From NCBI GenBank assembly GCA_021521415.1, contig JAIQDT010014343.1, positions 1 to 64,000 on the forward strand: a stretch of 64,000 bases of DNA, in the 5' to 3' direction. Shown here one piece after another: positions 3,436 to 39,341 of this stretch. The position numbers and the translations under genes are program-made. This DNA is from Bidens hawaiensis. Lineage: Eukaryota > Streptophyta > Magnoliopsida > Asterales > Asteraceae. The notes under the pieces were generated by a model. That model did no database searches. It was not told where the DNA came from and worked only from the letters and a program-made list of their open reading frames with translations. Each line of letters begins with the position of its first letter. Positions within the stretch are counted from its first letter, which is position 1.

Positions 3436-3913
3436 CCCCCTTTCGTCCTGAGACACACGTAAAGAATGTGTGAATCATGAAACTCCAGTATGGATGGAAC
3501 AACTTCTTGATAGCTGAAGGGTAGACTCCCTCATATCCCATTCTTTGTGCAATCTCAGCAACAGCTTCGGTGGAATACTCTGCAGGATAATCAGGTTAAT
3601 CACCGAACAGCAACACCTCACGAATTATAGCCTTAGAAATAATAACAGGCTTCTTCTAGATCTTTGACTCAATCACCATAGCTCCCCCAACACCTCTTTG
3701 ATTGATCGAAGCATGATTCCAAAAATCAGTCACTATCTTCTTACAAATGACAGGAGTTTCTCGTAAAACGTGAGAAATCCTACAAGTATTTAGCCCCAAA
3801 ATCATTGACTTGAACTCCTTTTGAGCTAGAAGAGGATCAAAGAGGCATCCATCAATATTATGAGTATCAACAAACTTCAGAGGTGCTTGATCAGCTATGA
3901 CTACAACAAACAA
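3436..3913 (-). pseudogene. Extra ('env-like') ORF of element C, N-terminal part
   Basis: The minus-strand pieces 3656-3913 and 3436-3541 share a layout with the extra ORFs of elements A (from 28204) and B (from 16157): a CRISHVLR segment, a DFW segment, then MGYEGVYPS...HPYWSFMIHTFFTC and a GRKGG turn. Element A has RIFHAIT, EDFW, MGYSGPLG, RFLMHVMIVC and GRKAG in the same order. A stop near 3653 splits it, and similarity ends near the 12-C tract. No signal peptide or membrane segment is visible, so 'env-like' describes position only. Confidence 0.7.
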
Positions 3914-4074
3914 ATCAAGTCAGTTACATATTCATTAAATAGATGAGCAGTTATTATATGGAATATATATTTGATTGAATAGACATCTTGATCATAGGAC
4001 AAGGACCAGAACCATAAATATAGGCAATATGAGTCCTCATTTGTAAAATAGTCCAAATTATATTAATCATAATC

Positions 4075-4345
4075 GTTTTTTGGTCCAATAAAGGAGTTTT
4101 CTGTCTAGTAAACAAATAATCGGTCCAGAGTTTTCGGCCCATAAATTGAGTTTTCGGTCAATAATTAACGTTTTCTGTCCAAGACAGATCATAAGTAACC
4201 CTGTACCACCGAGAACATGAGTTCTTGGGTAACCAAATGGGTTCTCGGTAAAAGTTTGACCGAGAACTCTTGAGATCTCATATAATCACAAGGTTCTCTG
4301 GTTGACCAAGGGTTTTTGGTCAACCATTACCGAGAACCCATGATC
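4075..4345. repeat. CCGAGAAC/GTTCTCGG motif array before the extra ORF of element C
   Basis: The 8-mer CCGAGAAC or its complement occurs four times exactly, with near variants such as GTTTTCGG (two near 4130-4160). The copies are in both orientations. The array sits directly upstream, in element sense, of the extra ORF that starts at 3913. The same 8-mer is arrayed in the leader of C at 12780-13080. Weak TATA-like stretches (minus CCTATATTTATGG at 4012-4024) lie between array and ORF. Confidence 0.7.
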
Positions 4346-5059
4346 CCTATATCTCAAAGGTTATATCCCTTAAAAAAACCCTTTGGATTTTGTCTTGAAT
4401 TTCGAGTCATCTTCCACAAACCCCGAATTGCCATTAACATAAAACCGCAACCCCAAGAAAAATCATAACAAGTTCAGACACACAATAACTATTCATTACA
4501 CACATGAATCCGAATCACATCTCAGAACCCAAACATCAATATAGTCCATATATGAATCAACAGTGACCCGAAAACACATTCATTAAGTTTCATATACCTA
4601 TAAGATTTATTAGCACCTTAGATGATCAATTATAAAAGCGATATAAGCCAAGAGGGTTTGAAATCAGAGAGGAAGAAAAGATATAGTGCATATTTGAAAG
4701 TGATGACCAATAATGGTCACATAACATGCCTTTTAAACTTCAAAAATCTTTTGTTTGGGCTGAAAACCCTGATGGGCTGAGAACATACATATTATAAGCA
4801 CATGTGGGCCAAAGCAGCTGGGCGAAGAACACCCTTATCAAAAACCTTTTGGGCGAATCTGATTGGGCCGATAACCCAATTTGCAGATATCAGACTTTAT
4901 GAACTCAAATTATAAGCCTGATCCATGTTTAAAAACGATCTCTTATACCATTTGTTTCGACAAGAGCAAACATAAGGTATGATTAAAAACAAATAAGGAA
5001 GAAAACAACAAAAACAAAATGAAGACAAAAACAATTTGAACACCAAGCCTTCTTGTAAT

Positions 5060-6247
5060 TACAAAATATTTTTGGGATCAAATTTCAGTTTCGATAAGTG
5101 AGCAAACTTTTTTGAAAAGATCCGAACATGGAATCATATTGATTAAGATGCTTTCACAATGATTCATTTTAAGCATTATTATGACATAGAGAAACAGGTT
5201 AATAGCATGTATTGAGATACTTAGCATGATTTTCATTGTGGTAGTGATACGAAATAGGTTCAAGATGGACATCACTTATGGACCCATCATGCCTACTATC
5301 TCTTCTCAAAGCGTATTTGGCTTTCTCCAAATCACTTCAATTTGACTCCAACCCCTTAGTGCTTGATCAAAAGATTTTCTCTATACAAACAAAAAAAATT
5401 AAGCTTTAAGGTTGAACGTTGGACTTACAGGCAATCTAGAGTTACATGCCTTACATTCAGGGTGTTTAGGACTTATTTGAATGGCCCACCCTTGTAGTTC
5501 AAGTTTGACCCATTAAGATTTTGAAAGACGAACTTTTTTATGACACAATATTCTATAAGTGATTTTTTTTAAATAAAACAATAACCTAGAAACATAATAT
5601 TTTTGGTGATCAAGACACTAACGAGCTCGTGTATTACTGGGTAATTGTTTTTCTACCTATCATTCGTAGATATGTATCTAGAGACGTGCACGCGTTTTCA
5701 AAATGACTCTCCACAGTAAGTTTAACATATTTAGTTTATATCACTTCAATTTTTACGCATCATGGAAAGCTACCATACAAATCAGTGACTGTTCAAAAGC
5801 CTTTTTAGCCTAGTAACTTCACATGTAAGGCACACATAAATAATTTAACTATAATTTTCCAAAGGTTGGATCAAATTTTCATATAAAAATATTTTGAGCT
5901 TCTAAAGAGCTTTTAACTGAATAATCATATCACTTCCCATATAGTTATTGAGAAGATATTTTATATTCAGTCGTCCTAGTCACTTTCAGTCTTAAGGTAA
6001 ATGGCTATCCCGTATGTTTTCAGGCAGATAACGGGACCAAACATATTAAAGTACATGTCCCTCGAACTTAAGTAACCGACATATTTTAAGCGAAAGAATT
6101 AAACAAAACCACACAATTGTCACCCTAGTCACTTTCAGTCTTCATGTGAATGGCTATCACGTATGTCTACAGGTAGATAACAGGATCAAACATATAAAAG
6201 TATATGTCCCTCAAACTTAAGTAACCGGCATATTTTAAGTGAAAGAG
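5060..6247 (-). other. Conserved non-coding spacer between pol and extra ORF (element C)
   Basis: This stretch has no open frame but matches the equivalent spacers of A (28584-29710) and, more weakly, B (about 17500-18958). Shared landmarks with A include GGGATCAAATTTCAG at 5073, TCTCAAAGCGTATTTGGCTTT at about 5305 and ACTGGGTAAT at about 5636. Its upstream end (element sense) holds two tandem 128-bp modules at 5971-6098 and 6119-6247. Each contains GGCTATC, GATAAC, GGACC/GGATC, an ACATAT-type hairpin and GCGAAAG/GTGAAAG. The best hairpin is 6190-6207, with 7-bp arms ACATATA/TATATGT. Confidence 0.75.
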
Positions 6248-6429
6248 TGCAAATTCTTTTTTTATTTTTTTTTAATTTTATAAGAACACACGCACACTCT
6301 TTTTGTATATATATCTTTTTAATTCCCCCCCTCCCTCTAAATTTGTGAAAAAATTTTACAAGAAAGAAAAAACCTTTTTGTACAAATTTAATCTCAAAAA
6401 GACCCAATGAAACAAAGCATTTTAAAAAA

Positions 6430-7889: not shown

Positions 7890-8324
7890 CCAGCTTGGTT
7901 CTTATAAGACCATTTCAACAGACTTAGGTTCAATCTAAGAGATGTAACAGGAAAATAAACAACTATTGATGTGTCATGTCTGACTTCTGGTTGAGACGCC
8001 TGTTTCAAGAGGACCTATAATATTTTTGATTGGATGACCCCGTTGAATTCTTGTCAGAATAGAATGATGGAAACGGAATAGGTAGTGGGCAAATTTGTTG
8101 GATCTTCAAAGATTTCAGAGGGAATATTTCACGTACTTCAAGAGACTTTTGTGACGACACAGTCTCAATAATACTTTCCTATTGACTTGCAGACAACGAC
8201 TGTGCAGTATTTAATAATTCTGATGGGTCTATATTGAGCATTGGGGACTTAAGAAAATCAGTAGTAATGTCGTATTCTTCATCAACAACATTTGAAGTAC
8301 CTGCACCTGAGTTTTCTCGAATAA

Positions 8325-12637: not shown

Positions 12638-12779
12638 TTGTTGAAGTATTAGTTAATTGGTCCATGTTAAACTAAAGTCCAAGAAAATGGTCCAAGTGAT
12701 TGAATAAGTCCAGAGATCAAAGCCCAAAAGAATAGGCCCAAAATAAGAATACCCGATAACTAAAGCCCACAAAAGACCA

Positions 12780-13080
12780 GTCCCAAAATCAACCAAAGAC
12801 CGAGAACCCAAATAATTGACCGAGAACCCATGAAAGTCAACTGAGAGCACTAAATATTTCCTGAAAACAAGTGAGCAGTAACTGAGAACTCCCAAAGCTT
12901 CCCAACAACACTGAAATTTAACCGAGAACGATCAGGAATGCCCGAGAACAACCAAAAATGCCCGAGATCACACAAACATGGCCGAGAACGATAAGGATAT
13001 GGCGATAACCCTTGATTATAGCTCGAGAACGACCAAAAATGCCCGAGATCACACAAACTTGGCCGAGAACACGCAGATGA
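12780..13080. repeat. CCGAGAAC motif array in the 5' leader of element C
   Basis: There are six exact CCGAGAAC copies plus variants (CCGAGATC, TCGAGAAC, ACTGAGAAC) in 300 bp, almost all in one orientation. The segment at about 12940-12990 recurs at about 13021-13073, a tandem duplication of roughly 80 bp. The array lies between the primer binding site and gag, the same place as the arrays in A and B. Confidence 0.8.
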
Positions 13081-13300
13081 TTGACTTGGTATACTTGGAA
13101 AGTAAATCGAATCCCGAAAATGTGGGGATTTGAATTAAAACCAATCATCCAGTCAAATCTAATCCAAACAGTCTCAACCAACCCCGATGAACACGAAAAA
13201 CAGTTGTTCTTAGATTTCTAGAAAACTTCAAGCAAATATCAATCAAAAATGCCCTTGGAATCAATGATATCACCTTAATTGAGCCTAGAATAGGTCTATA

Positions 13301-13313
13301 GGCTATGATACCA
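13301..13313 (-). other. Primer binding site of element C
   Basis: The minus strand reads TGGTATCATAGCC, two bases from the LTR boundary at 13316. It has one difference from the usual tRNA-Met complement (CATAGCC instead of CAGAGCC). Confidence 0.8.
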
Positions 13314-13315
13314 AA

Positions 13316-13348
13316 TGTAAGTCCTGTGAGAGGATCTTTTAATGTTAT
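13316..13348 (-). repeat. 5' LTR of element C, inner end (interrupted by element B)
   Basis: Starts TGTAAGTCC on the plus strand directly beside the primer binding site and breaks off after GTTAT, where element B begins. It continues at 39005. Combined LTR length is about 370 bp. Confidence 0.75.
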
Positions 13349-13912
13349 TGAGAACACTATAGAGCTTCAATTGATCGAATTCGTCATATCAATTGAATAC
13401 CAGATCTAGTTATATGATATATGTTTATGTATAATAGATTAAACTTGATTAAGATTAACGAAGTGCTTGGGAGAACAATTGGGCAGAGTAACGACACACG
13501 AGAATTAAATTTAAAAAACAATTAAATTAATCTTTGGCTGAACAGCTTATATATAGAAGACGAATGCCATTCGTTACACATTCCGTAACGAATGGCCTTC
13601 ATTCGTCTTCATTACATAAATAACCAAAATGGTATAGCGAATGGCTCATTCGCTATACCCCATTCATCAACATTCCATGACGAATGGATACAATATATAA
13701 CGACTAAGGTCCATTCGTTAAACATCCTTAACGAATGGTCATATAACAATAACAATTAAGGTTCATTCGTTAAACATCCTTAATGAATGAACAATATTAA
13801 ACATGATTGGCCTCATTCGTTAAACATCCTTAACGAATGAGCCATAATATAACGTATGGGACATATAATTACTAAATAGCCCTTTACATTAAAATATAAT
13901 AAATTATCAACA
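13349..13912 (-). repeat. 3' LTR of element B (outer end shortened)
   Basis: Nearly colinear with 38398-38999: the same TGAGAACACT inner end, TATA box (plus 13547-13555) and CATTCGTT arrays (about 13568-13850). It ends at about 13912, lacking the last ~40 bp present in the 5' LTR, and runs straight into the extra ORF with no purine tract. A small deletion at the 3' LTR start is the simplest reading. Confidence 0.85.
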
Positions 13913-16157
13913 TACCGATAAGCTTTAATGATCTTCGAAGCTCGAATCTTTTTGTTGTGGTTCTTGAACCAGCTTTCAATATCTTGTTCAGACAAACTTG
14001 ACTCTTTTTCTGACATCTTCTCTTTCTTCTTTGTTGTTTTCTTGAGATGATCTTCGACAGCTTTGACATATTCTTCAGTGAAGGTTGGAAGACCCTAATC
14101 AACGTTTGAACGATAATAAAGATCAGGGTATTCTTCTGCCGTAACGTCTTCCATCTCAATCTCCTCATATTCATAAATATACGACGTATTCTCGTGTCGA
14201 ATACTCGTGTCAAATAAAACATCTTCATCATTCACAACCTCTACATCCTCCTCAGCCTCCAAAGCATCCAATTCTTCATCATTTAACCCCAACAACAGTG
14301 ATATTTGATCACGAGACAAGGCATGATCAACAAATTCACCATCCTCGATCTCATCAGCGTTGGCGGTACTCATCACCACCCCCTTTTCATAATCCATAAA
14401 TAAAATAGTGTTGGCTTTGATCGACTCGATAGGCCTAACATTAGTCGAGTCTTGATAAACGACTATCTGCCGATCATTGCCTTCACCACCATAACCACTC
14501 GTACCTGTAGAGGATGAGCCATGAGCTTGTTTTGGGTCACTTCCACTGGCGCCGGGAGCATCGAGATCCTTATCTTCATCATCATTCTTCAATTTCATTA
14601 ACGCGTCGTCTTTGCATGTTAATTGAAGAATAAGTTCCTCCTGCTCCTTCATTTTCACCCCCTGAGCCACTACAATCTCACGCAGCTCCTTAGTCTACTT
14701 TAGGCAAAATGATACATACCCCATCAATCGACGTTGATTCGTCATCATTTGTTCTTGAAGTTGACGATTAACAACCATTTGATTCTCATATAAATGAATC
14801 AAACTGAGGAGCGTGTCCATCTGATGTGTGGGTGGCAATGCATGAAAAGAAGCTAGAACATGCTGCACCGGACCTTGTGGACGGCTGATTCTAAAAAATG
14901 ATAGAGCCGAAGGTTGTGTCGGAATCATCATAGGAGTAGGAGACAGCACCGTTGATGTAGAAAGAGGCGTTGGCATAGGAGATAAAAGAGATTGAGGAAT
15001 TGCGCAAAGCATAGGATCGGATGAAATGTTCGTCATCAAAGTAAGTGTCGGGGTGCTAGTAGTAAGCGACACCGCCGGCCGTTGTTGTGCAGACGACTTA
15101 GGCACTTGTGGATTAAACTCCACACCTAAAGCATGCCTAATACGCCGGCCTTTTGTTTTCGTTGAGCATCGTGTGAGCTGGCTGCCTCAACGTCAACACG
15201 TCGATCATCACCCCCGTTATCACCATCTCCACCATCATCATTACCACCATCGTTCCCACCTGGTCCTTCTTCACGTTCAGAATCTGAGTCGTCGTCCAAC
15301 GATCATCGGAAGGATATACATAATCCGAATTCGCCAAGTGACCAATTAAACGCTTGGTCATTGGACTATCTTCCGTTTTTTTTCCATGATAAGTTTTCAT
15401 CCTCTTCATTGTATCGGCAGTCATGTGTTCCAACTTTAACACATCATCCTGTAGTGACTGATCAATCACCAAATCAGGAATTAAATCCTGAATAATCAAC
15501 TACATAAAGCGTGGATACATGAGGAACTTGCTGCGACGATTCTTGATCAAGAAGATCTCCTTCAGATGATAAAATATAAGTTCAGAGAAATTGAATGACT
15601 TGTTCAATATTAGAGCTACAAATGCGGATTGAAGCATAATCCGACATTCGTCAAATCCACCCTTGCGACACCCAAGGAAAAGTATCAAGACATGTAGTAA
15701 GTACTTGTACGGAGCACACAAGTACGCCTTGTTATATTGGGAACGGTCAAAGTCTCCAGAATAAAATAATCTCCAAAATAAACCTCATATCAACGTCTTA
15801 TCGAATTCACATAGTATGTCCAGGAGATATTGTGATCGTCTTCTTATTGATCTCAGCAACTATATGATTCTCTGATTCCACGTATGTTGTCGAGTTCCAA
15901 AATGGACAGATAATACTGAAGTGGACAGGTACATCGGCAGTTATGGCATAGTGTATCCTGGAGCATGGTAGAAATGTAATAACATCGCCAAAGATGTCCT
16001 GATCAGCAAAGTTGTCCAGCACGAAAGCACAAATATTATGCTTTTTATTGAGCGACAATAAAGGAGCAGCTGGAGCCTGTTGTTTCTGTACAGGCTGTTG
16101 TTCTTGAACAATTGGTTGTGGATCAGCAAGAACATCTTGAACAATTTCATCAGCCAT
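13913..16157 (-). pseudogene. Extra ('env-like') ORF of element B
   Basis: Start chosen at the ATG at 16157 (MADEIVQDVL), which follows the motif array. The N-terminal part (DVITFLPCSRIHYAIT, FWNSTTYVESE) is in 15807-16157. HVLILFLGCRKGGFDE, ILNKSFNFSELIFYHL and KFLMYPRFM are in 15500-15721. Linker and Pro/Ser/Thr-rich parts are at 15137-15499 and 14695-15123. A very acidic segment (NDEELDALEAEEDVE) is in 14095-14670 and a Lys-rich end at 13813-14231. Order and spacing match the extra ORF of A. Stops and frameshifts make it a pseudogene. Function unknown; no signal peptide or transmembrane helix is seen. Confidence 0.75.
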
Positions 16158-16289
16158 TGCTCTAAATACATAAACCCGAATATTAGTAATATGAATAATT
16201 AATTTAAAATAAGAATTCAATTTAGATAAACAAAATGAATATAGTTTATAAATAATTACAAGTATTATTCGTAAGTACAATCATTATGA

Positions 16290-17260
16290 CGAATGGAGTC
16301 ATTTGTTATAGAGAATGGCATGATTCGTTATTGTCATCTAAACGAATGAGTGACTAACGAATGGGAGACAACGAATGAAACCAAATGAAGGTTCATTCAC
16401 TATCAAATCACACGAATGAGTTTATTCGTTAGATAAGCTCAACGAATGGACCTCAGACACGAATGAGTTTCTATTTGTTGTCCATAACGAATAACCACTA
16501 TAATTATCAACTTTGACCTTATTTTGTCAAAGTTAAAATTAAACAAGAACATCAACAGTCAAACATACAATCATGTTACAATTGAATCATGTATAACGAT
16601 GAATCGATACACAAGTTATTTGAACAAACTCGGAATGACATAGTTGACAAACATTAATCAACAATACTGGTTAAAACTCAGATTAAGAATGAGTTATCAT
16701 TCATGACATAAGTCGGTTAACAAAGTCGATTAACTAACCTAGCAAATATGGATGAAAATTGACGAAACTTGGTATGTTTTACTCGTATATACCTTAAGAT
16801 TCTTAAATTATCAACAAAACTATGTTTGATTAATGTTGAAATTTCTAAAAACAATTTGGAAAGGGTTTGTTGTGTTTTTGCTTTAAACGAAGTGAACGAA
16901 TGAGCCGTTTTGTTCACCTCCTGTTCTTTATATAAGACAAGACTTACACGCATTCCCATACGGACGGATGGACCCATTCGTTAATTCAAAGATAAGGAAT
17001 GGTTCATATTCGTTGGTTCATTCGTTAACCCAGTTAACGAATGAACAATAAGTTAAGTTTCATAACGAATCAACAAAGATTCGTTCTTCATTCGTTATCA
17101 ATATTGATGGCGAATGGGGTCATACGTTATCATTGTAGTGGAAGCAAATGATGATAACAAATATGCTTATTCGTTATCCTAATGAAAAATAAGTAACTCA
17201 CATTCGTTATCAGTATAAATAACAAATAGATTCTATTCGTTATGAATCCACATAACGAAT
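16290..17260. repeat. AACGAATG/CATTCGTT array before the extra ORF of element B
   Basis: About ten exact AACGAATG or CATTCGTT copies and many one-base variants, in both orientations, spread over 1 kb upstream (element sense) of the extra ORF. The same motif fills the LTRs and leader of B. A TATA box (minus TATATAAAG) lies at 16926-16934, just downstream of the densest part (16974-17260). Confidence 0.85.
16926..16934 (-). promoter_or_regulatory. Candidate internal TATA box, element B
   Basis: Minus TATATAAAG, with CATTCGTT copies starting about 40 bp upstream and the extra ORF start about 770 bp downstream. The LTR of B has the same array-then-TATA arrangement. Promoter function is inferred from layout only. 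Confidence 0.45.
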
Positions 17261-17499
17261 AGCAATTAAATAATCAAATTAAAATGAAAATTTTCCATTT
17301 TAACCTTCAAGAATTAAATAATGCATCGAAACTCGTGTCCCGATGAACTTTACCTTAAAGATCTTACCACTCGGAGTAAAATGCAATACCTTAAAGTGGT
17401 TTGCGTTCAAAATACATTAACTTAAATGACAAATAATTTAAATCAATAAAAGAATTAAATAAAATTGGGAAAATCTTTTTGGTATTTTCTTTTTCAAAT

Positions 17500-18958
17500 A
17501 TGTACCCTTTAGCTCAAAAATCGAAGATAAAGCAGAAAACGAAAAATAGAAAAACACAATATTTTTGGATTTTTGATTATTTTTGAATTAAAAAGCACAT
17601 AAAACAAGAACATGTTTAAAAAAAACTATTCTATGAAAGCAGTACATATTTTTGTAAGTCAAGTAGAGAATCATATTTACCGAATTTTCCCTTCCATCGC
17701 AGTTTTATATTTTAGCGTTATTATGACTGGTATTAAGTTGGTCATTGATATTGTTGTCCACTTAAATCTTATAAAACACCTTTGAGTATTTTTGTGATAT
17801 GATTTAATTTTCAATTAGGGCACAGAATATCATAAACTATCAGCCTCTAATCTCGGTTCAGGCTTAGTTTGACTTTTACCATATCACCACAACTTGACTT
17901 AAACCATTATGTTGCTGATAAAAGTAAAGATTTTATAGTTTTATAAACAATCTCAACTCATAATCCCCACTACAAGGTATACCTCCATTATCAAGCGATA
18001 CACCAAGATTCCTTTATTGTAAATGAGTATGAATGAGTTCATCTGTAGGCTTACATACATTGATTTAAACCATTATGTTGCTGATCAAAATAAAGATTTT
18101 ATAGTTTTATAAACAATCTTAGCTCATAACCCCACTACAAGGTATACCCCCATTATCAAGTGATACACCAAGCTTCCTTTACTTTGAATGAGTATGCACT
18201 AGTTCATTTGTATTAAGACGCGCGCAAGGGAGGAACAATGCATGACTAACATCGGATTTTAATCAAGTCAGTAATGAATTTGTGTTATGTACAGTAGTGA
18301 TCAAGTTTAATAACTTTGGGTTTGCTCTAAAAACTTTTGAAATATTCATGTTTATGAATACTCAGATAGTTAAGCCGCATAAAGCCTCACAATGTCTGAA
18401 AACCGGATGCATCCCATCAATAAAGGATTTGAGGCCATAAAACCATACATCATTGAAGCGTTAACCATAAACTAAATGCATTTCAATTTGGCAGTTCTTT
18501 ATGTTTATATCACATACTTTACGTTAACAGTTTGTTTAAGACCTATCAATGCACCAATGTAGTTAAGCACTCAGCCTTTTAAGCTTATTTCTTTCTAAAT
18601 ATGGCACTAGATGATCAATGTACTATCATTTTCTCTTTTTGCTTCAAAACTCATTTTTAGGAGCATTTTTATTAAATCGTCCCAATCACTTTTAGTTTAT
18701 AGATAAATGGCTATCCTATATATCTACAAGTAGATAACATGACCAAACATGTACAGAAGTACATGTTCCACAAACTTAAATAACCGACATAATTTTCAGC
18801 GAAAGAATTCAATAAAACACACAACAGTCGCCCCAGCCACTTTCCGTTTTCAGGTAAATGGCTATGCCGGGTATTTACAAGTATATATCAGGACCAAACA
18901 TATACAAGTATATGTCCTTTAAATTTGAGTAACTGTCATAGTTTTAAGTGAAAGAGTG
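17500..18958 (-). other. Non-coding spacer between pol and extra ORF (element B) with duplicated hairpin module
   Basis: No open frame. The upstream end (element sense) has two tandem modules, 18677-18808 and 18828-18958, colinear with those of A and C. Hairpins are at 18747-18766 (arms ACATGTAC/GTACATGT, loop AGAA) and 18898-18915 (arms ACATATAC/GTATATGT, loop AA). The two stems differ in sequence but both pair fully. The spacer also contains an internal direct duplication of about 120 bp (about 17900-18010 and 18060-18180). Confidence 0.75.
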
Positions 18959-22503: not shown

Positions 22504-24855
22504 ATCAAAAAGGCAACCCAAGCCTTAGTCTTAGGCACCTCTTTAATTTCCCTTGAAGAGTTAGTTTTGATTGAATCCAAATGTGGTTTAGCTGCTTTTA
22601 AATAAGTCACAGGCATTTTCAACTTTCGTCTCAAATACGCAGCTTGAACTACATTTGTGTTCACATTTTTACAAATTGGTTCCGTAGGAACAAATTTGGG
22701 TTTTAAATTACTTATGCTCTCATCAAAATGAATCACTTTGCTTGGATTCACATTTGAAAACATTATGTGAGTCTCATCATCACAAGACATGGGTCTTTTT
22801 AAAATTTCTTTAACCAAAGGAACGGGTTTGGCTTGTTCTTGATAAAAGGATGAATATTCTGTGATTTCTTCATTCCACGGTTTATTACAATGTGACCACG
22901 TGTACCACATAAAAAGCAAGTTCTCATGTCAGAAAACGTACGTTGTGGTTTAACAGAAACTGTTTCAACTGAAGTTTGATGAGACATACCAGAAACATGC
23001 ATTTTGTTCAAGTCATCAAACGTAATAGATTTCTTTTTTATAAAGAAGTCAAGAAGTCAAGATTTGAACTGTTTCAACTGTACTTTCTTCACATAATTTA
23101 ACAATTGTTTTGCTTTAATCAATGGATCTGTTTTGTTTGATACTTTTGATTTAGCAAATGCATGCTCAAGGTCTTGTACTTCGGAAATTTCATTGTTAAA
23201 GACACTCTCAACCAACTCTGGTTTGATTAAAATTAAGAGGAATGTCTTTCTCAGTGAATACCTTGCTAAGACCTCTTAACTTAAACACACGACCAGTGTT
23301 TTCATTAAAAGAAGCTAGATTAATGAAACACATCAAATCCTCATCAGAAATCTTTGGTTTAACTGATTTCTTTGTCTTAGACTTTAAAGGTTTTAGAAAA
23401 TTCACATTAGATGTACTTGAACCATACACAACTTCCTCAAATTCATTAGGTTCACATAAGATGTGATTCGAATGTGGAATGTTCTGATTTTTGTGTACAA
23501 TTTCAGGTTCAACCGCATCCTCAATTATTACATTCTCAACAAGGACTTTGTTACTTTGAATATGATTTTCTTGAGTTGAATTTTGAACAATGACTTTTTT
23601 TTTTAGGTTGACCTCATGAATGACAGGTTCAGTAACGATTTCTTCTTTTCCCGTAGACGGATTTTGGGAATAATCATCACGAAACGGTGGAGGAACTTCA
23701 ACAAAGCCTAAACCTTTTGTTTACCATATACTTCAGTTATTTCATTTAGCAGAAAGGATGAATTTCTAAATTTTTCCAATTTTCTTTTCAACTCTAGAAC
23801 TTCATTTTCAAGGTCGGTTATTTTAGATCTTTGTTTGAGAATTTCTTGAAATTATCTATCATTAATGGTCATTTTCACTGAAAGTTCTGCTTTCAAATCA
23901 TGATTACTTATAGACAATCCCTTAATCTTTTCTCTGGCTTTCATTTGTGACTCTAATGATTGTCTATATGTGTCCTTGGTTGAAGTAAGTTCTTTCATTA
24001 GTGAATCATTATGAGCATTAATTAAATTTATTTTAGACTTAGCTGTTTCACAATTAGAAAAAACACATTTTCTAATAATTTAACAGAACCAGAAGAAGAA
24101 CTGACCTCGTCAACTTTAGCCATGCAAACAAAAGTAGTCGGATTCATTTGGCTAGAAACATCAGAATCTGATTCAGTGTCAACTTCACTTTCAGAAATCA
24201 ACCTTATTCCACTTGCATCTTGAAAATCTTCAATGTGCTCAAACATTGCTAGATTAGCTTGACCTCCATTCCCCAGCATTCGTTGTTTCCAATCTATCTT
24301 GTCAGCTATGAGTAAATCGTGTGATCCCGCAGCCTTTGAAGAATCTCCCCCTGATGGATTATCTTTCACCTCAGTAAAGGTCTTTCCAGAACTTCTGTCT
24401 TGAGAACGAGGACCATTGTATTCCTTCTTTAGCTTATCACATTACCTAGCAAAATGACCAAACTCTTGGCAATTGTAACATTTGACTTTCAATTTGTCAA
24501 AGCCAACTCGATTGTTTAAGGATGGTAAATCTTTTCCAGTTCGTTGCATGAACTTTTTCACTTTTCATACTATCATAGCCATATTCCATTTGAGAACCAC
24601 TAACTCAAGATCATCAAGGTCAATCTGATCATATTCTTTATCAGTCAATTCACTTGTAGCAATCTTGCTACCCACCAAGTTTTCATAAGAAGTCAAAAAT
24701 GCACAAAGAAAATCAAAATTTTGTTAAGCTTCCTTCATGTTTATATTCAGTGGAGCAGTGAAAACATTGAAGTTGGTCCACTAGGTATTTCACTGATCCC
24801 AGAAGCCATGATGCATACATTCGGATTACTATAGGAAGATGATCCCCCTTGTGCA
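22504..24855 (-). pseudogene. gag of element B, C-terminal part
   Basis: First zinc knuckle (CYNCQEFGHFAR, then a stop where Glu is expected) at about 24440-24485. Acidic Ser-rich linker with SESEVDTESDSDVSS in 24028-24369. Second, degenerate knuckle (TCFLCGTRGHIVINRG, last Cys replaced by Arg) at about 22880-22925. The C-terminus ends at a TAA that overlaps the acceptor-like tract 22479-22503. It continues from 36742-37526 across the insertion of element A. Confidence 0.8.
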
Positions 24856-24860
24856 GTTTG
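24856..24860. other. Target-site duplication of element A (left)
   Basis: GTTTG, identical to 36737-36741. It proves that 24861-36736 inserted as a unit. Confidence 0.95.
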
Positions 24861-25324
24861 TGTAGGTTCCCTGGACGGATCACACGAGATATCCCGATAT
24901 ACACAGGTGCGGAATCCCTGTGTAGATCGTTACGGACGTAGAACACAAACACACGAACACACGAATACGATACAAACAACCACACGTTATATTAATAACT
25001 CAACACGTGATATAATCACAGTTACAGACTCTCGACCTCACGTCACTTGACTCACGAACAATAACTGAATTACACAAAACTTTTTGAACAACTAGCCGTA
25101 ACCTATATAAATACACGACAACTTTGCCTCAGGCGAAGTTGTCCATAACTTCTCTTGGTTAACAAGTTCGCCTAAGCGAACTTGTCAACAACTTCGCTTG
25201 GTTAACAAGTTCGCCTAAGCGAACTTGTCAACAACTTCGCTTTAAACAAACAAATACATAAACAATATTACAGACTCGATTACAGACACTAGACATATGA
25301 ACTACTGACATTTATGCACCAACA
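24861..25324 (-). repeat. 3' LTR of element A
   Basis: Plus-strand ends TGTAGGTTCC and CACCAACA. Contains a TATA box (plus 25104-25113) with AACTTCGC/GCGAAGTT and AAGTTCGC/GCGAACTT copies directly upstream in element sense (25120-25245), including a 43-bp tandem duplication that holds an inverted repeat. It also supplies the transcription terminator of the element in principle. Confidence 0.96.
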
Positions 25325-25336
25325 GACTCCCCCTTG
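25325..25336 (-). other. Polypurine tract of element A
   Basis: The minus strand reads CCAAGGGGGAGTC directly against the 3' LTR, the expected plus-strand primer for reverse transcription. Confidence 0.85.
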
Positions 25337-25388
25337 GCAGTAGCTTCATATCTTGATCTTTCAGCTCTTGTCTCGTAATCCTGTATCT

Positions 25389-27209
25389 TCACGCGTGCAC
25401 TCCTTCTCTAACACATACCGACACAACTCGTTGATACTTTCTTGCTTCGTCCTTCCAAGCTGGAATATAAAAGATTTTCTTCTCGTTAAGCACCTTCAGA
25501 TCAGCTTGCGATAAGTTAACAAGATGCATCGGATCGTAAACTCTAAGAATCTCTTGTTCATCCTCATCTTCCATCACTGCCTCCGCTGTCTCACAATCAA
25601 CGAACCACCACTTTAGGTCTTTGAGCACATCCTTGGGCATAAGCTTCATCGGTACTTCTTTAAGGCACCGGATTGGTTTATACTTCATAACCATCCAAGG
25701 CTTTCCATCAGCTCTCAAACCTCTATCCTTGTCTTCAACAAGTTTTCCTTTCTGTGGTTTCAACAGCTCAAACTTCTTTTCCTTTATGCTCTCTTTCCAT
25801 ACGATTTTCCCTATGACTCTAGCCATATTATCGTCACTTCGATTGATCAACCCCAATCTGGCTAAGTCTTTAACCTCACATTCAGGCAGTGTGTTTAACG
25901 ATCTCAACATTCTATTAAGGTACTGAACTCCATCATATCGTTTAATCACGAAGAGCCGCAACTGCTCATCATAAATCCAGCATATAATCCTTTTCTTTGC
26001 TTCAGCATAGCCCTTAATATTGTAACTCTTTTTGAACATGGTAGGGACTGCCGGTTTCTTCGTTTTGACGAACCAATGAGCGTATCCTTCCTTCCACCTC
26101 GGCTGCTCTTCCCATTCAGTATCTTCAACTGCCGTCTGATCACCCATATCGGCCTTCTCAACCTCTGGAATGTCATGTTCGACATTTTCCTCTACTATCT
26201 CTCCTTCCTCATTCTCATTCTCAATCTCAATCTGCTCACCGATCTTCTCAATCACATCACTCGGCAGCACATCCTCATCAAACAATATATCATCGCTGAA
26301 CATATCATCATCTAGTTCTTTCAACGCATCAATCACGTCATCATCACCACCAGCCGCGTCGGCAGACTCCCCCTCAGCTGTGGAAGTACCAAGAGCTTGA
26401 GAAGTTCTTGGCAGCTCACCACCTGCATCTTTCGATGCATTGGGATCATCGTCTCTGTCGTTTCTCTTCTTCGTCCTGAGCTCGTCGCCTTTACAGCTCA
26501 TCTCCCCCTGAGATGCCAAGAACTCCTTCAAGGCATCTATAATTTTCCCATGCTCAACAAGGAGGGATGACTGTAGTTGATTTGCTTCCACTAGGCGTTG
26601 AATAGTCTTCGATTGCTCTGCCACGATCCGCTCTAGTGAAGCTATTCTCTCTGAGTCTGACATAGGCGTAGGCGAGACATCAGAAGCAGGCGTAACCGCA
26701 GGTGGTACCATACCTGATAACCCTGCAGTAGTGACGACCGTTGACTCTACAAATCGTGCAGCAACCACCGACTGAGTAAGCGTTGGAGGTGGTAGAGACA
26801 CAATCTCCGGAGTCGACATCTGGATATTAGTGGTAGATGGAATGCCAGCAGATGATGTAGCCGCCACGGGAACATCCGCAGCGCTTGTACTTGTAACCTG
26901 TACAGAAGTAGGAACGATAGACATACCAGACAGTGCGGCCGGAGCGAAACGTACCCTTCTGGAAGTCTCTCCAGCTCCCATACCAGCACCTGTCCTTTCC
27001 CGTCTTGATCGTCTTATCAGCTTATGTATATCTTCTTCCTCTTCTGACTCATCATCATCCTCCGTTCTCTTTCTCTTTCCAAACGTTCTCTCTCGAGACG
27101 CCATCAACCGTCTCCCCTCATTCATGATCTCATCCAAATCTGAGTCAGCCATCGACGTAGCTGCTCTAGTAACACTCACACCCGAACCCTGTGCAGCAGA
27201 GACCTGCAC
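25389..27209 (-). CDS. Extra ('env-like') ORF of element A, C-terminal half
   Basis: Open for 606 codons. The ATG at 27209 is probably internal: sense coding similarity runs on upstream into the other frame, and the 342-codon ORF overlaps it by 34 bp, so one lost base near 27250 best explains the split. In order: LDEIMNEGRRLM; a basic cluster (FGKRKRTE) followed by an acidic run (DDDESEEEED) and another basic cluster (RRSRRERTG), resembling a bipartite nuclear signal; a Ser/Thr/Val/Pro-rich stretch; a helical segment (SERIASLERIVAEQSKTIQR); long acidic tracts (residues ~275-370); and a Lys/Trp-rich C-terminal region. No transmembrane helix. Function unknown. Confidence 0.75.
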   Translation of the reverse strand: MQVSAAQGSGVSVTRAATSMADSDLDEIMNEGRRLMASRERTFGKRKRTEDDDESEEEEDIHKLIRRSRRERTGAGMGAGETSRRVRFAPAALSGMSIVPTSVQVTSTSAADVPVAATSSAGIPSTTNIQMSTPEIVSLPPPTLTQSVVAARFVESTVVTTAGLSGMVPPAVTPASDVSPTPMSDSERIASLERIVAEQSKTIQRLVEANQLQSSLLVEHGKIIDALKEFLASQGEMSCKGDELRTKKRNDRDDDPNASKDAGGELPRTSQALGTSTAEGESADAAGGDDDVIDALKELDDDMFSDDILFDEDVLPSDVIEKIGEQIEIENENEEGEIVEENVEHDIPEVEKADMGDQTAVEDTEWEEQPRWKEGYAHWFVKTKKPAVPTMFKKSYNIKGYAEAKKRIICWIYDEQLRLFVIKRYDGVQYLNRMLRSLNTLPECEVKDLARLGLINRSDDNMARVIGKIVWKESIKEKKFELLKPQKGKLVEDKDRGLRADGKPWMVMKYKPIRCLKEVPMKLMPKDVLKDLKWWFVDCETAEAVMEDEDEQEILRVYDPMHLVNLSQADLKVLNEKKIFYIPAWKDEARKYQRVVSVCVREGVHA

Positions 27210-28204
27210 CTCTTCCAGCGGATCAACCCGGTCAATATCAAAGTAATCTGACCACCAAATACTTCATCAAGATCAATATTCTCCTCAGCCGTCACAACAG
27301 GCACAGCAGATGCAGCTTGAGTTGCTCTTGCCTGTCGTGGTTGAGGATCTCTGAACTCGTCCCCACCAGCAGGAACATACTCTGGGTTGATTAAAAACCC
27401 AAACAGTGGAGTATGCCTTGGACGCCGCTCAGGCTTGCTCCTCGCACTCGAAGTGCGGCATTGAGCGAAGATACGCTTGCTCACAGATTCCACGTATCTT
27501 ATTGGTCGTCTCAGAGGTAGATTCGGAGCCACATGGTTCAATATCATCTGGATGAAACGTGGATACATAATGAACCGCTCACGAGCCATCGCCCTCCTCT
27601 GTCTGTCAATCTCGTAAAAGACCATCTGATTAAAACTATAGCGTTTATTGTAAGTCAGTGCAGTCATTGCGGACTGCATGGTCGCACCCATACCGTCAGT
27701 GCCCGCCTTCCTTCCTGACATGCAAACTATCATGACGTGCATAAGGAAGCGCCACTGATCAAGTAGAAAACCCTTCCGTCTCTGTGTATCGCCTAATGGA
27801 CCAGAATAGCCCATTCGGAGAAACACTCCATCACGAAACGGAGCCACAAACTCAGTTGGGTCGTCCCTCGTCTCTTCTCCAAACCGTAACGCCACCCGAA
27901 TCTGTTCAGAATTGAACTGAACCTGATGATTGTTCACAGTCGCTCGCATGACCGGGGGCTCAACACGACAATCGTATTCTACCGTCTGCCAAAAATCTTC
28001 GATATTTGGTAAGGATATCGGCAGAGTCGTCGTGATAGCATGAAAAATCCTCGAGCTTATGAGGAAAGTAATAATCTCGCGGTAATCCTCAACGCCGCTC
28101 GCTTCCGGGTCAAGGGTGATGTACATATTGTGACCCGGGAAAAATTGCCTCTGATTGTCACCATCGTCTCCTCCTGCACCTCCAGCACCAGCTACTGCAG
28201 CCAT
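27176..28204 (-). CDS. Extra ('env-like') ORF of element A, N-terminal half
   Basis: 342 codons starting at 28204 (MAAVAGAGG), about 145 bp after the candidate internal TATA box. Segments in order: YREIITFLISSRIFHAIT, IEDFWQTVEYD, VALRFGEE, MGYSGPLGD, RFLMHVMIVCMSGRKAG, YNKRYSFNQMVFYEID, RFIMYPRFIQMILNHV. The same series is seen in the broken copies of B and C. Some composite-genome annotations call such proteins 'synaptobrevin, longin-like', which I recall but cannot check. There is no signal peptide, so an envelope role is not supported. The last ~20 codons are out-of-frame sequence after the frameshift. Confidence 0.75.
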   Translation of the reverse strand: MAAVAGAGGAGGDDGDNQRQFFPGHNMYITLDPEASGVEDYREIITFLISSRIFHAITTTLPISLPNIEDFWQTVEYDCRVEPPVMRATVNNHQVQFNSEQIRVALRFGEETRDDPTEFVAPFRDGVFLRMGYSGPLGDTQRRKGFLLDQWRFLMHVMIVCMSGRKAGTDGMGATMQSAMTALTYNKRYSFNQMVFYEIDRQRRAMARERFIMYPRFIQMILNHVAPNLPLRRPIRYVESVSKRIFAQCRTSSARSKPERRPRHTPLFGFLINPEYVPAGGDEFRDPQPRQARATQAASAVPVVTAEENIDLDEVFGGQITLILTGLIRWKRCRSLLHRVRV

Positions 28205-28257
28205 ATCTTGAATCGTGAGGAAATCTGAGAAAAATAACTAAGAATCGAATTGAAGCA

Positions 28258-28445
28258 ATAAGTTTGCCGGAGGCTGTATATGTTCGCCGGATATATCTGA
28301 TAAGTTCGCTGTTTGAAAATAATGAAAAGGTTTGACCTTTGAACATCCTTATATAGGGGCGGAGCTATACAGGCGAAGTTACGGATAACTTCGCCTAGGC
28401 GAAGTTATTCACAACTTCGCCTGTTTAACAACATCGCCTATATTT
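28258..28445. repeat. GCGAAGTT/AACTTCGC array before the extra ORF of element A
   Basis: Four exact copies lie in 28371-28433, arranged as inverted pairs six to ten bases apart, with looser variants (TTCGCCGG, AGTTCGC) down to 28258. The motif is the same as in the LTR and leader of A. A TATA box follows at 28347-28355. Confidence 0.85.
28347..28355 (-). promoter_or_regulatory. Candidate internal TATA box, element A
   Basis: Minus TATATAAGG, about 15 bp downstream of the inverted motif pairs and about 145 bp upstream of the ATG at 28204. The LTR shows array then TATATAGG with the same order. That it starts a transcript for the extra ORF is inference. Confidence 0.5.
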
Positions 28446-28583
28446 ACAAAATCAAACCTTATAATTTGAATATTTTTCAAATAACTCTTTAAAACTTCCC
28501 TTTAAGAAATAAATGACATGATCAATTCTAAGTAACCAGTTAAAAACTATCTAAATACAAAAACTTAAAAAAAATTTAAAGTA

Positions 28584-29710
28584 TAAGGGATCAAATTTCA
28601 GTCTGGATAGGGACTACCACGTTTTAGAAAAGATCCGAACAGGAATCATGCTAATTACGTGACTGTCACATAGATCCGTGTTTAGCTGTATTATGACATA
28701 TAGAGACAGGTTGTAAGCAGGTATAACTTAAAGGGGTTTTCATCGTTTCTGTGATACGAGTTAGGTTCGATTAAGCCTCAAAATTTAAGTGGGCAACAAC
28801 TCAGAGATTTTGATGCCTCCTATCTATTCTCAAAGCGTATTTGGCTTTCCCCAAGTCACCCCGAATTGACTTCGACCCATAGTGTCTGATTAAACTGTAA
28901 GTACTCTTCATTTGGTTCTCGTTCTTCTTCTTACTCTAAGATTGAGAAGTCTTGACACTTTCATCTCTAGAATGTTTCAATACTCAAAATTTATTTATTT
29001 TTTTTTTTTATTTTTTTTTATATAGACTTCAGAGTAGTAAATAACTGCAAGTCCTGAATCTGGATCACTGCAGTTTCTTGAAACGCTATCTTCACGGGAA
29101 TCAGAACACTTACGGGCTCGTGTATGACTGGGTAATCGCTTTTCTGCCTATCATTCGGAAAGATATATATGAAGACATGCAAAACTCTTAAGAAGTTTCC
29201 ACGTAAAATCAAGTAGATTTAGTTTGTATCACGTCTACTTTTACGCACCATAAAAAGTTACCATGACATACAATGACTGTCCTAAAGCCTTTTAAGCCTA
29301 ATAACTTCACTAGTTAAGCACACAGAATTAGTATATCTATCATTTTCCATGGTTGGATCAATTTTCTGTTAAACATAGCTAACGAACTTCTTACGAAGTA
29401 ACAGACTTGAAAAATAATTTCATTTCCCAGAAAAATTTTGAATTCTATCGCCCCGATCGATTCAAAGTCTTCAGGTAAACGGCTATCCCGAAGATCCAAT
29501 GGATCAGCTGGACCGACCACATACTAGTATGTGTCCTTCTAACTAATTATGATCGACTAATTTTCAGCGAAAGAATAAAAACTCATCATAACCGCCCCGG
29601 TCACTTTCAGTCATCTGGTTAATGGCTATCCTCATATTCTATAAGGACCAAACATATCCTAAGACATGTCCTTCAAACTGAGGTAACTGAAATAATTTTA
29701 AGCGATTAGT
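28584..29710 (-). other. Conserved non-coding spacer between pol and extra ORF (element A)
   Basis: Colinear with 5073-6247 of element C although the surrounding coding regions have diverged far more. Two modules, 29448-29575 and 29592-29710, repeat CGCCCC(G), GGCTATC, GGACC and GCGAAAG/GCGATTAG. The first holds a perfect 16-bp palindrome at 29518-29533 (CACATACTAGTATGTG). A run of T (A in element sense) separates the module from the pol stop. Confidence 0.78.
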
Positions 29711-29747
29711 GACGTTTTTTTTTTATTTAAATACAAGAAAAGCATGG

Positions 29748-31214: not shown

Positions 31215-31319
31215 CTCTTCTTACATGGCTTCGACCCACGAGCTGTCCTTTAAAGCCATTTGATAATTCTTCGGTTCAATCTGGCTTATAAAGCAGGTGT
31301 ACAGGCATTCATTGATTAT

Positions 31320-33056: not shown

Positions 33057-33074
33057 AACAAAGCAAAAGATTAG
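33051..33074 (-). promoter_or_regulatory. Splice-acceptor-like tract at the gag/pol junction (element A)
   Basis: In element sense CTAAT, a pyrimidine-rich stretch, then TGTGCAG. The TAA of CTAAT is the gag stop. The same arrangement is at 22479-22503 (B) and 9624-9644 (C), 21-25 bp long each time. It fits a plant branch point plus 3' splice site; no matching donor has been proven. Confidence 0.45.
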
Positions 33075-34783: not shown

Positions 34784-34837
34784 CTTAGAGTAGTTATTGC
34801 TTGAAGAACTTGAAGAGCCACTACTCTGGCTTGCTGT

Positions 34838-35710: not shown

Positions 35711-35744
35711 CCTTCTTGAAGACTAAGAAACCCGAAAAATTCTG

Positions 35745-36080
35745 AGTAGGCGAAGTTAAAAAATTTCCTCTGAACAGTACTGTAGGCGAAGTTAAGGATA
35801 ACTTCGCTTAAGTAATAACTTCGCTGGATCTTTCTTAAATTCGCGTGACTGGGCGAAGTTGAGAATAACTTCGCTTAGGGTAAGCGAACTTAGAAAGTAG
35901 GCGAACTTGAAGAAAAATTCGCTGAGCTAGGCGAACTTGATGAGAACTTCGCTGAGTTAGGCGAAGTTGAGGAGGTAGGCGAAGTTGTAAATAACTTCGC
36001 TTCTCCTTATATCTTCGCCGAAACCCTACGTATCCTGACAGCAACTTCGCCTGATGAACAGCAACTTCGCCTGACGAACT
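35745..36080. repeat. GCGAAGTT/AACTTCGC array in the leader of element A
   Basis: Twelve exact 8-mers plus three GCGAACTT variants in about 330 bp, in both orientations and often as inverted pairs 6-10 bases apart. Lies between primer binding site and gag ATG. It would form many small hairpins in the RNA. Confidence 0.92.
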
Positions 36081-36258
36081 CAAACTTTCTGCAGATCTGA
36101 AAATCGGATTTTAACGAGGTTTTTGACGGTTTAAAGGCTTGAACACACTGGTAGGAGGCTAGAATGAGCAAAAACACCAAAAACTCGTCTCGTGAATAGT
36201 CGAAACGGGACGAATTCTACACCCGCGTGAATATCCCGAACCACACAATCGAGCAAAA

Positions 36259-36270
36259 GCTCTGATACCA
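36259..36270 (-). other. Primer binding site of element A
   Basis: The minus strand reads TGGTATCAGAGC, matching the 3' end of tRNA-Met, two bases inside the 5' LTR. Confidence 0.93.
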
Positions 36271-36272
36271 AT

Positions 36273-36736
36273 TGTAGGTTCCCTGGACGGATCACACGAG
36301 ATATCCCGATATACACAGGTGCGGAATCCCTGTGTAGATCGTTACGGACGTAGAACACAAACACACGAACACACGAATACGATACAAACAACCACACGTT
36401 ATATTAATAACTCAACACGTGATATAATCACAATTACAGACTCTCGACCTCACGTCACTTGACTCACGAACAATAACTGACTTACACAAAACTTTTTGAA
36501 CAACTAGCCATAACCTATATAAATACACGACAACTTCGCCTCAGGCGAAGTTGTCCGTAACTTCGCTTGGTTAACAAGTTCGCCTAAGCGAACTTGTCAA
36601 CAACTTCGCTTGGTTAACAAGTTCGCCTAAGCGAACTTGTCAACAACTTCGCTTTAAACAAACAAATACATAAACAATATTACAGACTCGATTACAGGCA
36701 CTAGACATATGAACTACTGACATTTATGCACCAACA
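36273..36736 (-). repeat. 5' LTR of element A
   Basis: 464 bp, 7 substitutions from 24861-25324. TATA at plus 36515-36524, with five exact AACTTCGC/GCGAAGTT copies and four AGTTCGC/GCGAACT copies directly upstream in element sense. Followed by GTTTG (36737-36741). Confidence 0.96.
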
Positions 36737-36741
36737 GTTTG

Positions 36742-37526
36742 AGTAGGAAACACATTAATTGGAGCGGCAGTACCACTCAAAGGCAAGCAACCTCCATATT
36801 TATGTCGGGTCTTGAGTTTCTATCGATGACTTTTGACATTTAATTCATACTCTCTATCTTCAATATTTTGCATAAACACCATTGTAGTAAGATCATCATT
36901 TTTAAAGAAATTATTTTCTTTAAGTACCATGAGAAACGTTGAGTAGGAGCTTGGAAGAGCATTCTTCACAGTGTCAATCTTATCAACCTCACTTGGTTCC
37001 ATTTATTCATATCAACAATAAGATGATTGAATCTTGTGAGCATTTCTTCCACAGTCTCTCCTTTCAATAAGTTAAAGTTTCGAAACTGAAACTTTAACAT
37101 CACCTTTTTACTTTCTTTAGTATTACCCATACTTCTCATCTTGATATGTTGAAACAAGGATGCACAAATTTTAATACATCCCATTTGATGGAAAATATTG
37201 TCAGGTAATGCCATTGTTAAAGTGGAATATGCCTTATTTCCAATCTCTAGAGCTTTCTTTTCTTCATGAGAGTATTGGTAGAAAGCTTTTGGTGTAAACC
37301 CTGTAGTTTCACTACCAAGCATAGGAACAGTGTATACATCATCAAGACATCGTGAACAATCAGGGTGTACAAACCCTAGATGTGCTCTGAAACATGGTTC
37401 CCATTTAACAAAATCATTAAATTTCATTAAACGTGGACATTTTGAATGAGATCCAAATTCAGCATCGAGATGTAACATTTGATGCATCAACATATTCTGA
37501 GAAGCCAGTGCATAATAACAAGCCAT
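36742..37526 (-). pseudogene. gag of element B, N-terminal part
   Basis: Start chosen at the ATG at 37526 (MACYYALASQ). Helical gag region: RLMKFNDFVKWEPCFRAHLG, NKAYSTLTMALPDNIFHQM, MLKFQFRNFNLLKGETVEEM. A frame break at about 36980 leads to VDKIDTVKNALPSSYSTFL. Element A sits just after this piece, and gag resumes at 24855. Confidence 0.88.
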
Positions 37527-37589
37527 CTTAAACAAATAAAAGTTTAAACTTAGCAAAATTCAAACTTAAAGGGTTAAAATGAAATTTCT

Positions 37590-37940
37590 GTAACGAATAG
37601 GAAGACGAATGAGTATGATTGATGACGAATGATGAATAGTAACGAATGAGTATGACAGAAGAACAGTGATGAATGAGTTGATGAATGACTGAACACGAAT
37701 AGCTTAACGAATGACTAACAAATGGTTGACAAATGGTTAACGAATGGTTGACGAATGAATGTTGATTGGGTGACAAATCAGTGAGAACGAATGAACTTTC
37801 AATAACGAATTAGCTACAGTAAAGAATGAGTTTGTTATTCTGTTGTAACAAACTTAACACGTGGCACGAATCAGTTATATTTTAATAACGAATAAACATT
37901 AAACATGCAACGAATGGTCATCTCCATCATAACGAATGAT
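37590..37940. repeat. AACGAATG array in the leader of element B
   Basis: Six exact AACGAATG and many one-base variants (GACGAATG, AACGAATA), nearly all in one orientation, between gag and primer site. Same motif as in the LTR and before the extra ORF of B. Confidence 0.85.
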
Positions 37941-38383
37941 AAAATGAATCTTCAAACAGATTTCCAAATTTGGAAATTTTCTAGATTCAAACACCAAAAC
38001 GGATAATCAAAATTCCATGGATTACTCACTCAAGACTCGTTCAATTTTCACAAACTATAGCTCAAACAACTCATAATCGTCCCGCAGACAAACCAACAAT
38101 CCAATAAATCACCAAATCGACTCCTCTGTTCCGTTTAACACCCAAACGCAACTCAAATCCATTCCAAACTCATAAAATTATCCAATTCAATCACTACGAA
38201 CCTCGTAAATCCAAATCTGAACCTAATTAAAGTCAATTCATCATCAAATTATCATTTCATCATGCTAATTGAATGAAAATTGATGAACAACGTATCAGAT
38301 CTACAATTATCAAATCGAACTACAGTTAATCAATCAATTCATGATTAATACATTAATGATTAACACAATCTAACCCTGGTTAA
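37941..38383 (-). other. Leader of element B without motif
   Basis: AT-rich non-coding sequence between the array and the primer binding site. Nothing further is recognised in it. Confidence 0.6.
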
Positions 38384-38395
38384 GCTCTGATACCA
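38384..38395 (-). other. Primer binding site of element B
   Basis: The minus strand reads TGGTATCAGAGC, complementary to tRNA-Met, two bases from the LTR. Confidence 0.92.
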
Positions 38396-38397
38396 CT

Positions 38398-38999
38398 TGA
38401 GAACACTATAGAGCTTCAATTGATCGAATTCGTCATATCAATTGAATACCGTATCTAGTTATGATATATGTTTATGTATAATAGATTAGACTTGATTAAG
38501 ATTAAAGAAGTGCTTGGGAGAACAATTGGACAGAGTAACGACACACGGGAATTAACTTTAAAAAACAGTTAAATTACTCTTTGGCTGAACAACCTATATA
38601 TAGAAGACGAATGCCATTCGTTACACATTCTGTAACGAATGGTCTTCATTCGTCTTCAGTAAATAAATAACCAAAATGGTATAGTGAATGACTCATTCTT
38701 TATACCCCATTCGTCAACATTCCATGACGAATGGATACAATATATAACGACTAAGGTCCATTCGTTAAACATCCTTAACGAATGGACATATAACAATAAT
38801 GATTAAGGTTCATTCGTTAAACATCCTTAACGAATGAAAAATAATAAACACGATTGGCCTCATTCGTTAAACATTCTTAACGAATGACCCATAATATAAC
38901 GTATAGGACATATAATTACTAAATTGCCCTTTACATTAAAATAATATTAAATTACATAACTATTACAAAGACTTGAGACGACAAAACCTTGCACTAACA
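38398..38999 (-). repeat. 5' LTR of element B
   Basis: 602 bp, plus-strand ends TGAGAACACT and GCACTAACA. TATA at plus 38594-38603. Directly upstream in element sense are eight exact CATTCGTT/AACGAATG copies at 38613-38886, four of them as CATTCGTT...TTAACGAATG inverted pairs with a short loop. Confidence 0.93.
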
Positions 39000-39004
39000 G
39001 TGAT

Positions 39005-39341
39005 ATCATGTGAACTCGTTGTTAGGTGGAATCTAACAACGAATGGATTCAATATAAAGCAAATGAACACAATAAGAACACAATATTAATGCTTCAAAAC
39101 ATACATTTATAACGTCGGGTGCTTAAGCCCTTTGTAGTTGATAAGATCACACTTCTCTCGTCTCTCTATCGCTCGTGAACATCTAACTCTCTAGCAGTTA
39201 ACATTACATCATATATACATACACATGCTAACCCTAAGCCCAAACACACTAAGCCCACCGACATAATTGATTTCGGCTTACATATAGAATCCAAAACCAA
39301 GTCGAATAACCTATGCGTAAACCATTAAATGTGGCCCAACA
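39005..39341 (-). repeat. 5' LTR of element C, outer part
   Basis: Continues the LTR broken at 13348. Ends GGCCCAACA at 39341, where decayed gypsy pol begins. No CCGAGAAC copy is present, unlike the LTRs of A and B, which carry their own motif. Confidence 0.7.

Follow-up and report, generated by a model that had tools for sequence, protein, structure and literature searches.

What reads the short motifs that recur in the non-coding parts of three nested retrotransposons of Bidens hawaiensis? The elements, A, B and C, are Ty1/copia retrotransposons of the Sirevirus type, all on the minus strand of a 64,000-nt stretch (the window; positions 1 to 64,000 of contig JAIQDT010014343.1), and by reading A sits inside the gag of B, and B inside the 5' long terminal repeat (LTR) of C. 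Each carries arrays of a short word and an extra open reading frame (ORF) of the kind long called envelope-like. The arrays are probably sites for a DNA-binding regulator, and the best single reading is that this regulator may well be the element's own extra-ORF protein, resembling the VANC proteins of Mutator-like DNA transposons.

Words were counted exactly on both strands of the 64 kb, and the per-element counts given in a preliminary description of the window were reproduced segment by segment, with totals of 24 for GCGAAGTT, 39 for AACGAATG and 12 for CCGAGAAC. In element A, GCGAAGTT has five copies in the 5' LTR (36273..36737), where nine GCGAA[CG]TT in dyads are followed by TATTTATATAGG, TATA-like by eye; 12 in the leader (35723..36272; 18 at up to one mismatch), where the array follows the junction CA/ATTGGTATCAGAGC; four in the region before the extra ORF, or pre-ORF region (28238..28799); three in the 3' LTR (24861..25325; 98.5% identical to the 5' LTR); and none in gag-pol or the extra ORF. 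In element B, AACGAATG has eight copies in the 5' LTR (38397..38999, its end now corrected to 38999), with dyads at a core spacing of 17 and a TATA-like TCTATATATAGG; six in the leader (37524..38396; 15 at up to one mismatch); ten in the pre-ORF region (16281..18000; 25 at up to one mismatch); seven in the 3' LTR (13348..13925, its start truncated by reading); one in pol; and none in gag or the extra ORF. In element C, CCGAGAAC has six copies in the leader (12650..13347; 11 at up to one mismatch, many in 20-bp steps) and four, at 4209-4330, in the pre-ORF region (3900..5400), with none in gag-pol, the extra ORF or the LTR piece (39000..39341, part of the 5' LTR, which B interrupts, boundaries by reading). 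The claim that position is shared between elements holds for LTR, leader and pre-ORF region in A and B, and for leader and pre-ORF region in C.

In 300 dinucleotide shuffles per segment the named word averaged 0.003-0.16 copies. A shuffled segment could hold up to 3-10 copies of some word, and by that measure counts in the range 4-10 are not always exceptional; those of four (A and C pre-ORF), six (B and C leaders) and ten (B pre-ORF) were each equalled by a word in one or more shuffles. The recurrence of the same word across segments is a stronger point than any raw count. When all 8-mers of each segment were ranked blind, GCGAAGTT came top in two A segments, the 5' LTR and the leader, while the A pre-ORF region was led by GCGAAGTT shifted by one base and the A 3' LTR by a shift of the variant GCGAACTT; AACGAATG came top in both B LTRs and one-base shifts of it in the B leader and pre-ORF region; and CCGAGAAC came top in the C leader and pre-ORF region. 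Array words were top-ranked in none of the gag, pol and extra-ORF segments, where an element's own word totals one exact copy (B pol). A scan of the whole window in 400-bp windows, with A/T-run words excluded, recovered the places listed for the arrays of A, B and C. Six 8-kb stretches elsewhere (48 kb) contained two exact copies of GCGAAGTT, four of AACGAATG (three close together) and none of CCGAGAAC. Stray copies in the window lie at 24277, 39038, 49086-49264 (four), 50430 and 54942 for AACGAATG, and at 55142 and 55306 for CCGAGAAC.

The arrays are genuine and, within the A family, under constraint. The 3' pieces of 20 other A-family copies were fetched, chosen from the genomic places of GCGAAGTTGTTGAC, a 14-mer of A's LTR array with 3,595 + 3,511 sites genome-wide (control 3 + 6), and 18 of the 20 carry a full pre-ORF array of 15-25 GCGAA[CG]TT. 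In the remaining two (L026, L027) an internal deletion takes out the pre-ORF array and the first ~215 extra-ORF residues together and leaves the 3' LTR array, a joint loss which, arising by internal deletion, is not independent evidence. Among six pairs compared in an alignment of 13 copies, pre-ORF identity was 95.8-98.4% in motif columns and 64.3-81.3% in the rest, a large gap even allowing that the columns were defined in one row and that the aligner may favour them. In the leader, where most pairs were too alike to be informative, the most diverged of six gave 97.3% for motif against 74.9% for the rest. By eye, four rows of the A-family pre-ORF region run from a first array through a TATA-like CCCTATATAAGG (variant in some rows) and further arrays to a CAG that resembles a splice acceptor directly upstream of the ATG; this layout suggests that the extra ORF is driven by a promoter of its own, organised as in the LTR.

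The geometry of the copies points to what may bind them. Both orientations, reported for all arrays in the preliminary description, do occur in the LTRs, the pre-ORF regions and the A leader; with one mismatch allowed, all copies in the leaders of B (15/15) and C (11/11) point the same way, and there are no inverted pairs. In A the two starts of an inverted pair are mostly 14 bp apart, whether in LTR, leader or pre-ORF region; in B they are mostly 18 bp apart in the LTR and 17-20 bp in the pre-ORF region. Genome-wide, CATTCGTT-N10-AACGAATG has 10,148 sites (control 1), and among ~50 matches listed the centres varied, with A and T nearly always next to the arms; the mixed-arm dyad CATTCGTT-N10-AACGAACT has 447 + 450 (control 0). 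A fixed spacing with a free centre is the trace expected of a dimeric DNA-binding protein. A-type leaders were of mixed orientation in four of five examined, L055 having 1 to 9. As a separate observation, in eight elements of a TTCG[CT]TA type (L056, L057, L059, L060, L063, L066, L068 and that with its leader at 37524-38396 in the window) 85 of 86 leader cores point one way and the LTR copies form dyads.

Membership of the Sireviruses gave access to a wider sample. Their published mark, the 16-bp junction of 5' LTR and primer-binding site, CA-A(T/G)TGG-TATCAGAGC, is exact in A (CAATTGGTATCAGAGC) and, by reading, in B (CAAGTGGTATCAGAGC), and is mutated in C; the exact 16-mer occurs 16,746 + 16,891 = 33,637 times in the 3.47-Gb genome (reversed control 0 + 1). 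The gag of A matches Retrotran_gag_2 (PF14223, E 1.3e-21), that of B falls under the cut-off (24 of 27 bits), and A has the order copia gag domain, pol (ORFs by reading), extra ORF, 3' LTR. Sixteen junctions, all from one contig, were chosen from the first ~31 of ~100 listed. In 13 of the 16 the leader's top word includes CpG, with its score reached in 0 of 60 shuffles in twelve and 2 of 60 in L063; L053 and L054 have no leader array, and the leader of L058 is ambiguous (three copies, 1 of 60 shuffles). An LTR array is present by core count in ten (6-11 TTCG[CT], or four CCGAGTAC in L053), the very top LTR word of L057 and L059 being free of CpG, and nine elements have both arrays.

That each element owns one private 8-mer, as first proposed, is not borne out. 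In three of these nine (the A class) one word leads, or ties for the lead, in both LTR and leader; the other six have TTCG[CT] in common between the two, and the commonest three preceding bases differ in five of them and agree (TGA) in L060. L067 is like window C, with CCGAGAAC in the leader and none in the LTR. In elements D to G, which came to light in and around the 8-kb stretches, YCGAGYAMR-like words are clear in the D LTR and the E and G pre-ORF regions, weak in the F LTR, and absent from the D and F leaders. The core TTCG[CT] is common to A, B, a further element H and 11 of the 16 sampled, and CGAG to C to G; the core is conserved in each large group, and within a cluster the flanks tend to resemble one another. 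Flanks can also change together, since the H LTR aligns to the B LTR from its start to the TATA box, with large gaps, and the cores are CATTCGTT in 8/8 of B, and TAGTTCGTT in 6/8 and CATTCGTT in 0/8 of H. A B-like array even stands outside the three elements, at 48950-49300 (+), with five CATTCG, five AGTTCG and four AATTCG shortly upstream of a TATA-like CTTATAAAAG; 39.3-64.0 kb has no match to Sirevirus gag, pol or extra-ORF pieces, the array is similar to the H LTR region only shortly and weakly, and the stretch is possibly gypsy, an old Sirevirus LTR being the alternative. The Sirevirus leader of L064 carries a further type (CGTATAAG/CGGATAAG, four and three copies), and a long array with units such as CGTATATGTATAGCAGCGCATATGTGTAGCAACG lies in a gypsy-like stretch of L048 (offsets ~200-700 of the reverse complement), so that similar arrays may occur in further retrotransposons of this genome.

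The extra ORF of A (25389..28204) is broken near 27.2 kb and has a conserved N-terminal domain at ~27306-28204; B keeps a remnant with several frame breaks (14095..16280) and C a truncated one (3436..3899). Homology links the N-domains of A, B, C and E (lowest tblastn E-values against A-family ORFs: element B 2.5e-25, element C 4.8e-9, element E 1.8e-21) at pairwise identities of 29-38%, C and E, with the common CGAG core, being at 30%. The frame is open over 927-955 codons in seven A-family copies, and for their 21 pairs the ratio of non-synonymous to synonymous substitution lies at 0.02-0.26 for the N-part and 0.08-0.26 for the C-part, synonymous change being saturated in some; the ORF is under purifying selection. 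It is conserved and shows no clear envelope features: the top 19-residue Kyte-Doolittle mean of the seven intact ORFs is 1.58, just below the usual mark of 1.6 for a membrane helix (hydropathy only, no dedicated signal-peptide or membrane predictor having been run), and it carries the basic clusters GKRKR and PPKKKRR and acidic stretches. A Pfam scan of extra-ORF pieces, in which DUF1985 was sought as a VANC mark, gave no match above cut-off. Membership of Transposase_32 (PF20167) was rejected, the A N-domain scoring 12.1 bits (E 0.18) under a gathering cut-off of 45 bits, and the best E of 0.063 was reached in 2 of 13 members alongside other chance-level matches. A profile search against PDB sequences gave no match; the N-domain of a relative is predicted to resemble in structure VANC21 in complex with target DNA (9lnj, by its PDB title). 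To that extent the VANC parallel drawn in the preliminary description is partly supported, and the part of it that made the motif private to the element falls away.

Motifs of this kind have been described before. The Sirevirus RM boxes (Bousios et al. 2010, PMC2829016) are high-copy symmetric motifs in the LTR upstream of the TATA box and upstream of ENV, differing between elements around a common core and guessed to be regulatory, and A and B have the same arrangement; C differs in having its motif in leader and pre-ORF region and not in its LTR piece. In that paper boxes precede ENV in 9/9 box-bearing elements with ENV and 0/4 without, six ENV-containing elements have no boxes, and LTR boxes persist in ENV-less elements. 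The published core is CGG-CCG, whereas here it is TTCG[CT] or CGAG, although the published member Tnd-1 also lacks CGG-CCG; leader arrays, and half-sites that can stand alone in one orientation, are further differences, and the passages of PMC2829016 on the boxes propose no element-encoded partner. VANC proteins bind short repeated motifs of their own element, one motif also occurring in the unrelated AT9TSD1 (Hosaka et al. 2017, PMC5735166; also PMC10398659), and related VANDAL families have different motifs (PMC5735166, PMC10398659); a 2022 meeting report gave the VANC21 crystal structure as unpublished (PMC8756742). The likeness lies in an element that encodes a protein, has short motifs repeated in its non-coding parts and has relatives with other motifs. 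VANDALs are, however, Mutator-like DNA transposons and not LTR retrotransposons, no sequence similarity was found, and the present motifs contain CpG and form dyads. Sunflower Athila and Tekay carry additional ORFs with a predicted nuclear signal, that of Athila resembling Transposase_32 (PMC11728184), to which the A domain has the sub-threshold likeness given above; they belong to another retrotransposon superfamily, and the PMC11728184 passages describe no motif arrays. Literature searches turned up no published link between RM boxes and the VANC system.

Put together, the clustered sites would be bound by a sequence-specific regulator of two promoters, one in the LTR (array, then TATA) and one internal, for the extra ORF, where in the A family the putative order would be array, TATA-like box, further arrays and splice-acceptor-like CAG. 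The regulator would be the nuclear, VANC-like extra-ORF product, which on binding its own family's sites may counter silencing or activate transcription of the element; its entry into the nucleus, its binding to these motifs and its removal of silencing are inferred. The fullest form, in which the envelope-like gene is a VANC-type anti-silencing factor, which acts on the boxes of LTR, leader and ORF promoter, and the fold, perhaps even the origin, is common with the Mutator-like system, is put forward tentatively. Somewhat more doubtful, yet a serious possibility, is that a host transcription factor uses the arrays as enhancer sites, the idea put forward for RM boxes in 2010, and that the extra ORF has some other role. 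Arrays upstream of TATA-like boxes in LTRs and the pre-ORF region would suit such a factor, as would cores common to diverged families and to a possibly gypsy stretch with its own TATA-like box behind the array, and so would the published LTR boxes without ENV and ENV without boxes (PMC2829016). What a host factor leaves unexplained is the association of linker boxes with ENV among the box-bearing elements of that paper, the predicted resemblance to VANC21, and the change of flanks between the sister LTRs of B and H.

It is improbable that the leader motif acts at the RNA level, say as a signal for packaging by Gag or for translation: the one-way leaders of the eight TTCG[CT]TA-type elements and of C would fit, but dyads in both orientations occur in the LTR and pre-ORF arrays of these elements, and A-type leaders are mostly mixed. 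More improbable still are inverted copies kept for hairpin RNA, or functionless by-products of local duplication; tandem repeats do occur in these segments and flanks tend to agree within clusters, but the A-family pre-ORF motif columns (one family) are far more conserved than the rest, dyad spacing is constant around variable centres, and the B and C leaders have no inverted pairs. What the plant envelope-like gene does has been described as controversial and without experimental proof (PMC2829016); in maize, roughly a fifth of the genome consists of Sireviruses (PMC3599292). Were the gene to encode a VANC-like factor, plant retrotransposons would join DNA transposons in sequence-specific counter-silencing, the repeated boxes would gain a partner, and one protein fold might serve unrelated transposon classes.

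Other features of the window can be noted. Element C seems to have inserted into a gypsy element, an open frame adjoining its LTR at 39493-39972 (+) being gypsy protease/reverse transcriptase-like by reading. The 400-bp scan also found clusters of GGTTAACA at ~1.0-1.4 kb, and of ATTCGTTA at 48.8-49.4 kb, with other words clustering once each at 42.0 and 49.8 kb; the first is a tandem array around GGTTAACA (TGTTAACC) at 900-1420, of period 73 and belonging to another element. Four TGAACGAA words cluster at 57801-58200, and 45010-46721 holds three direct copies of ~259 bp and an inverted pair (45550-45926 / 46346-46721) of 95.8% identity.
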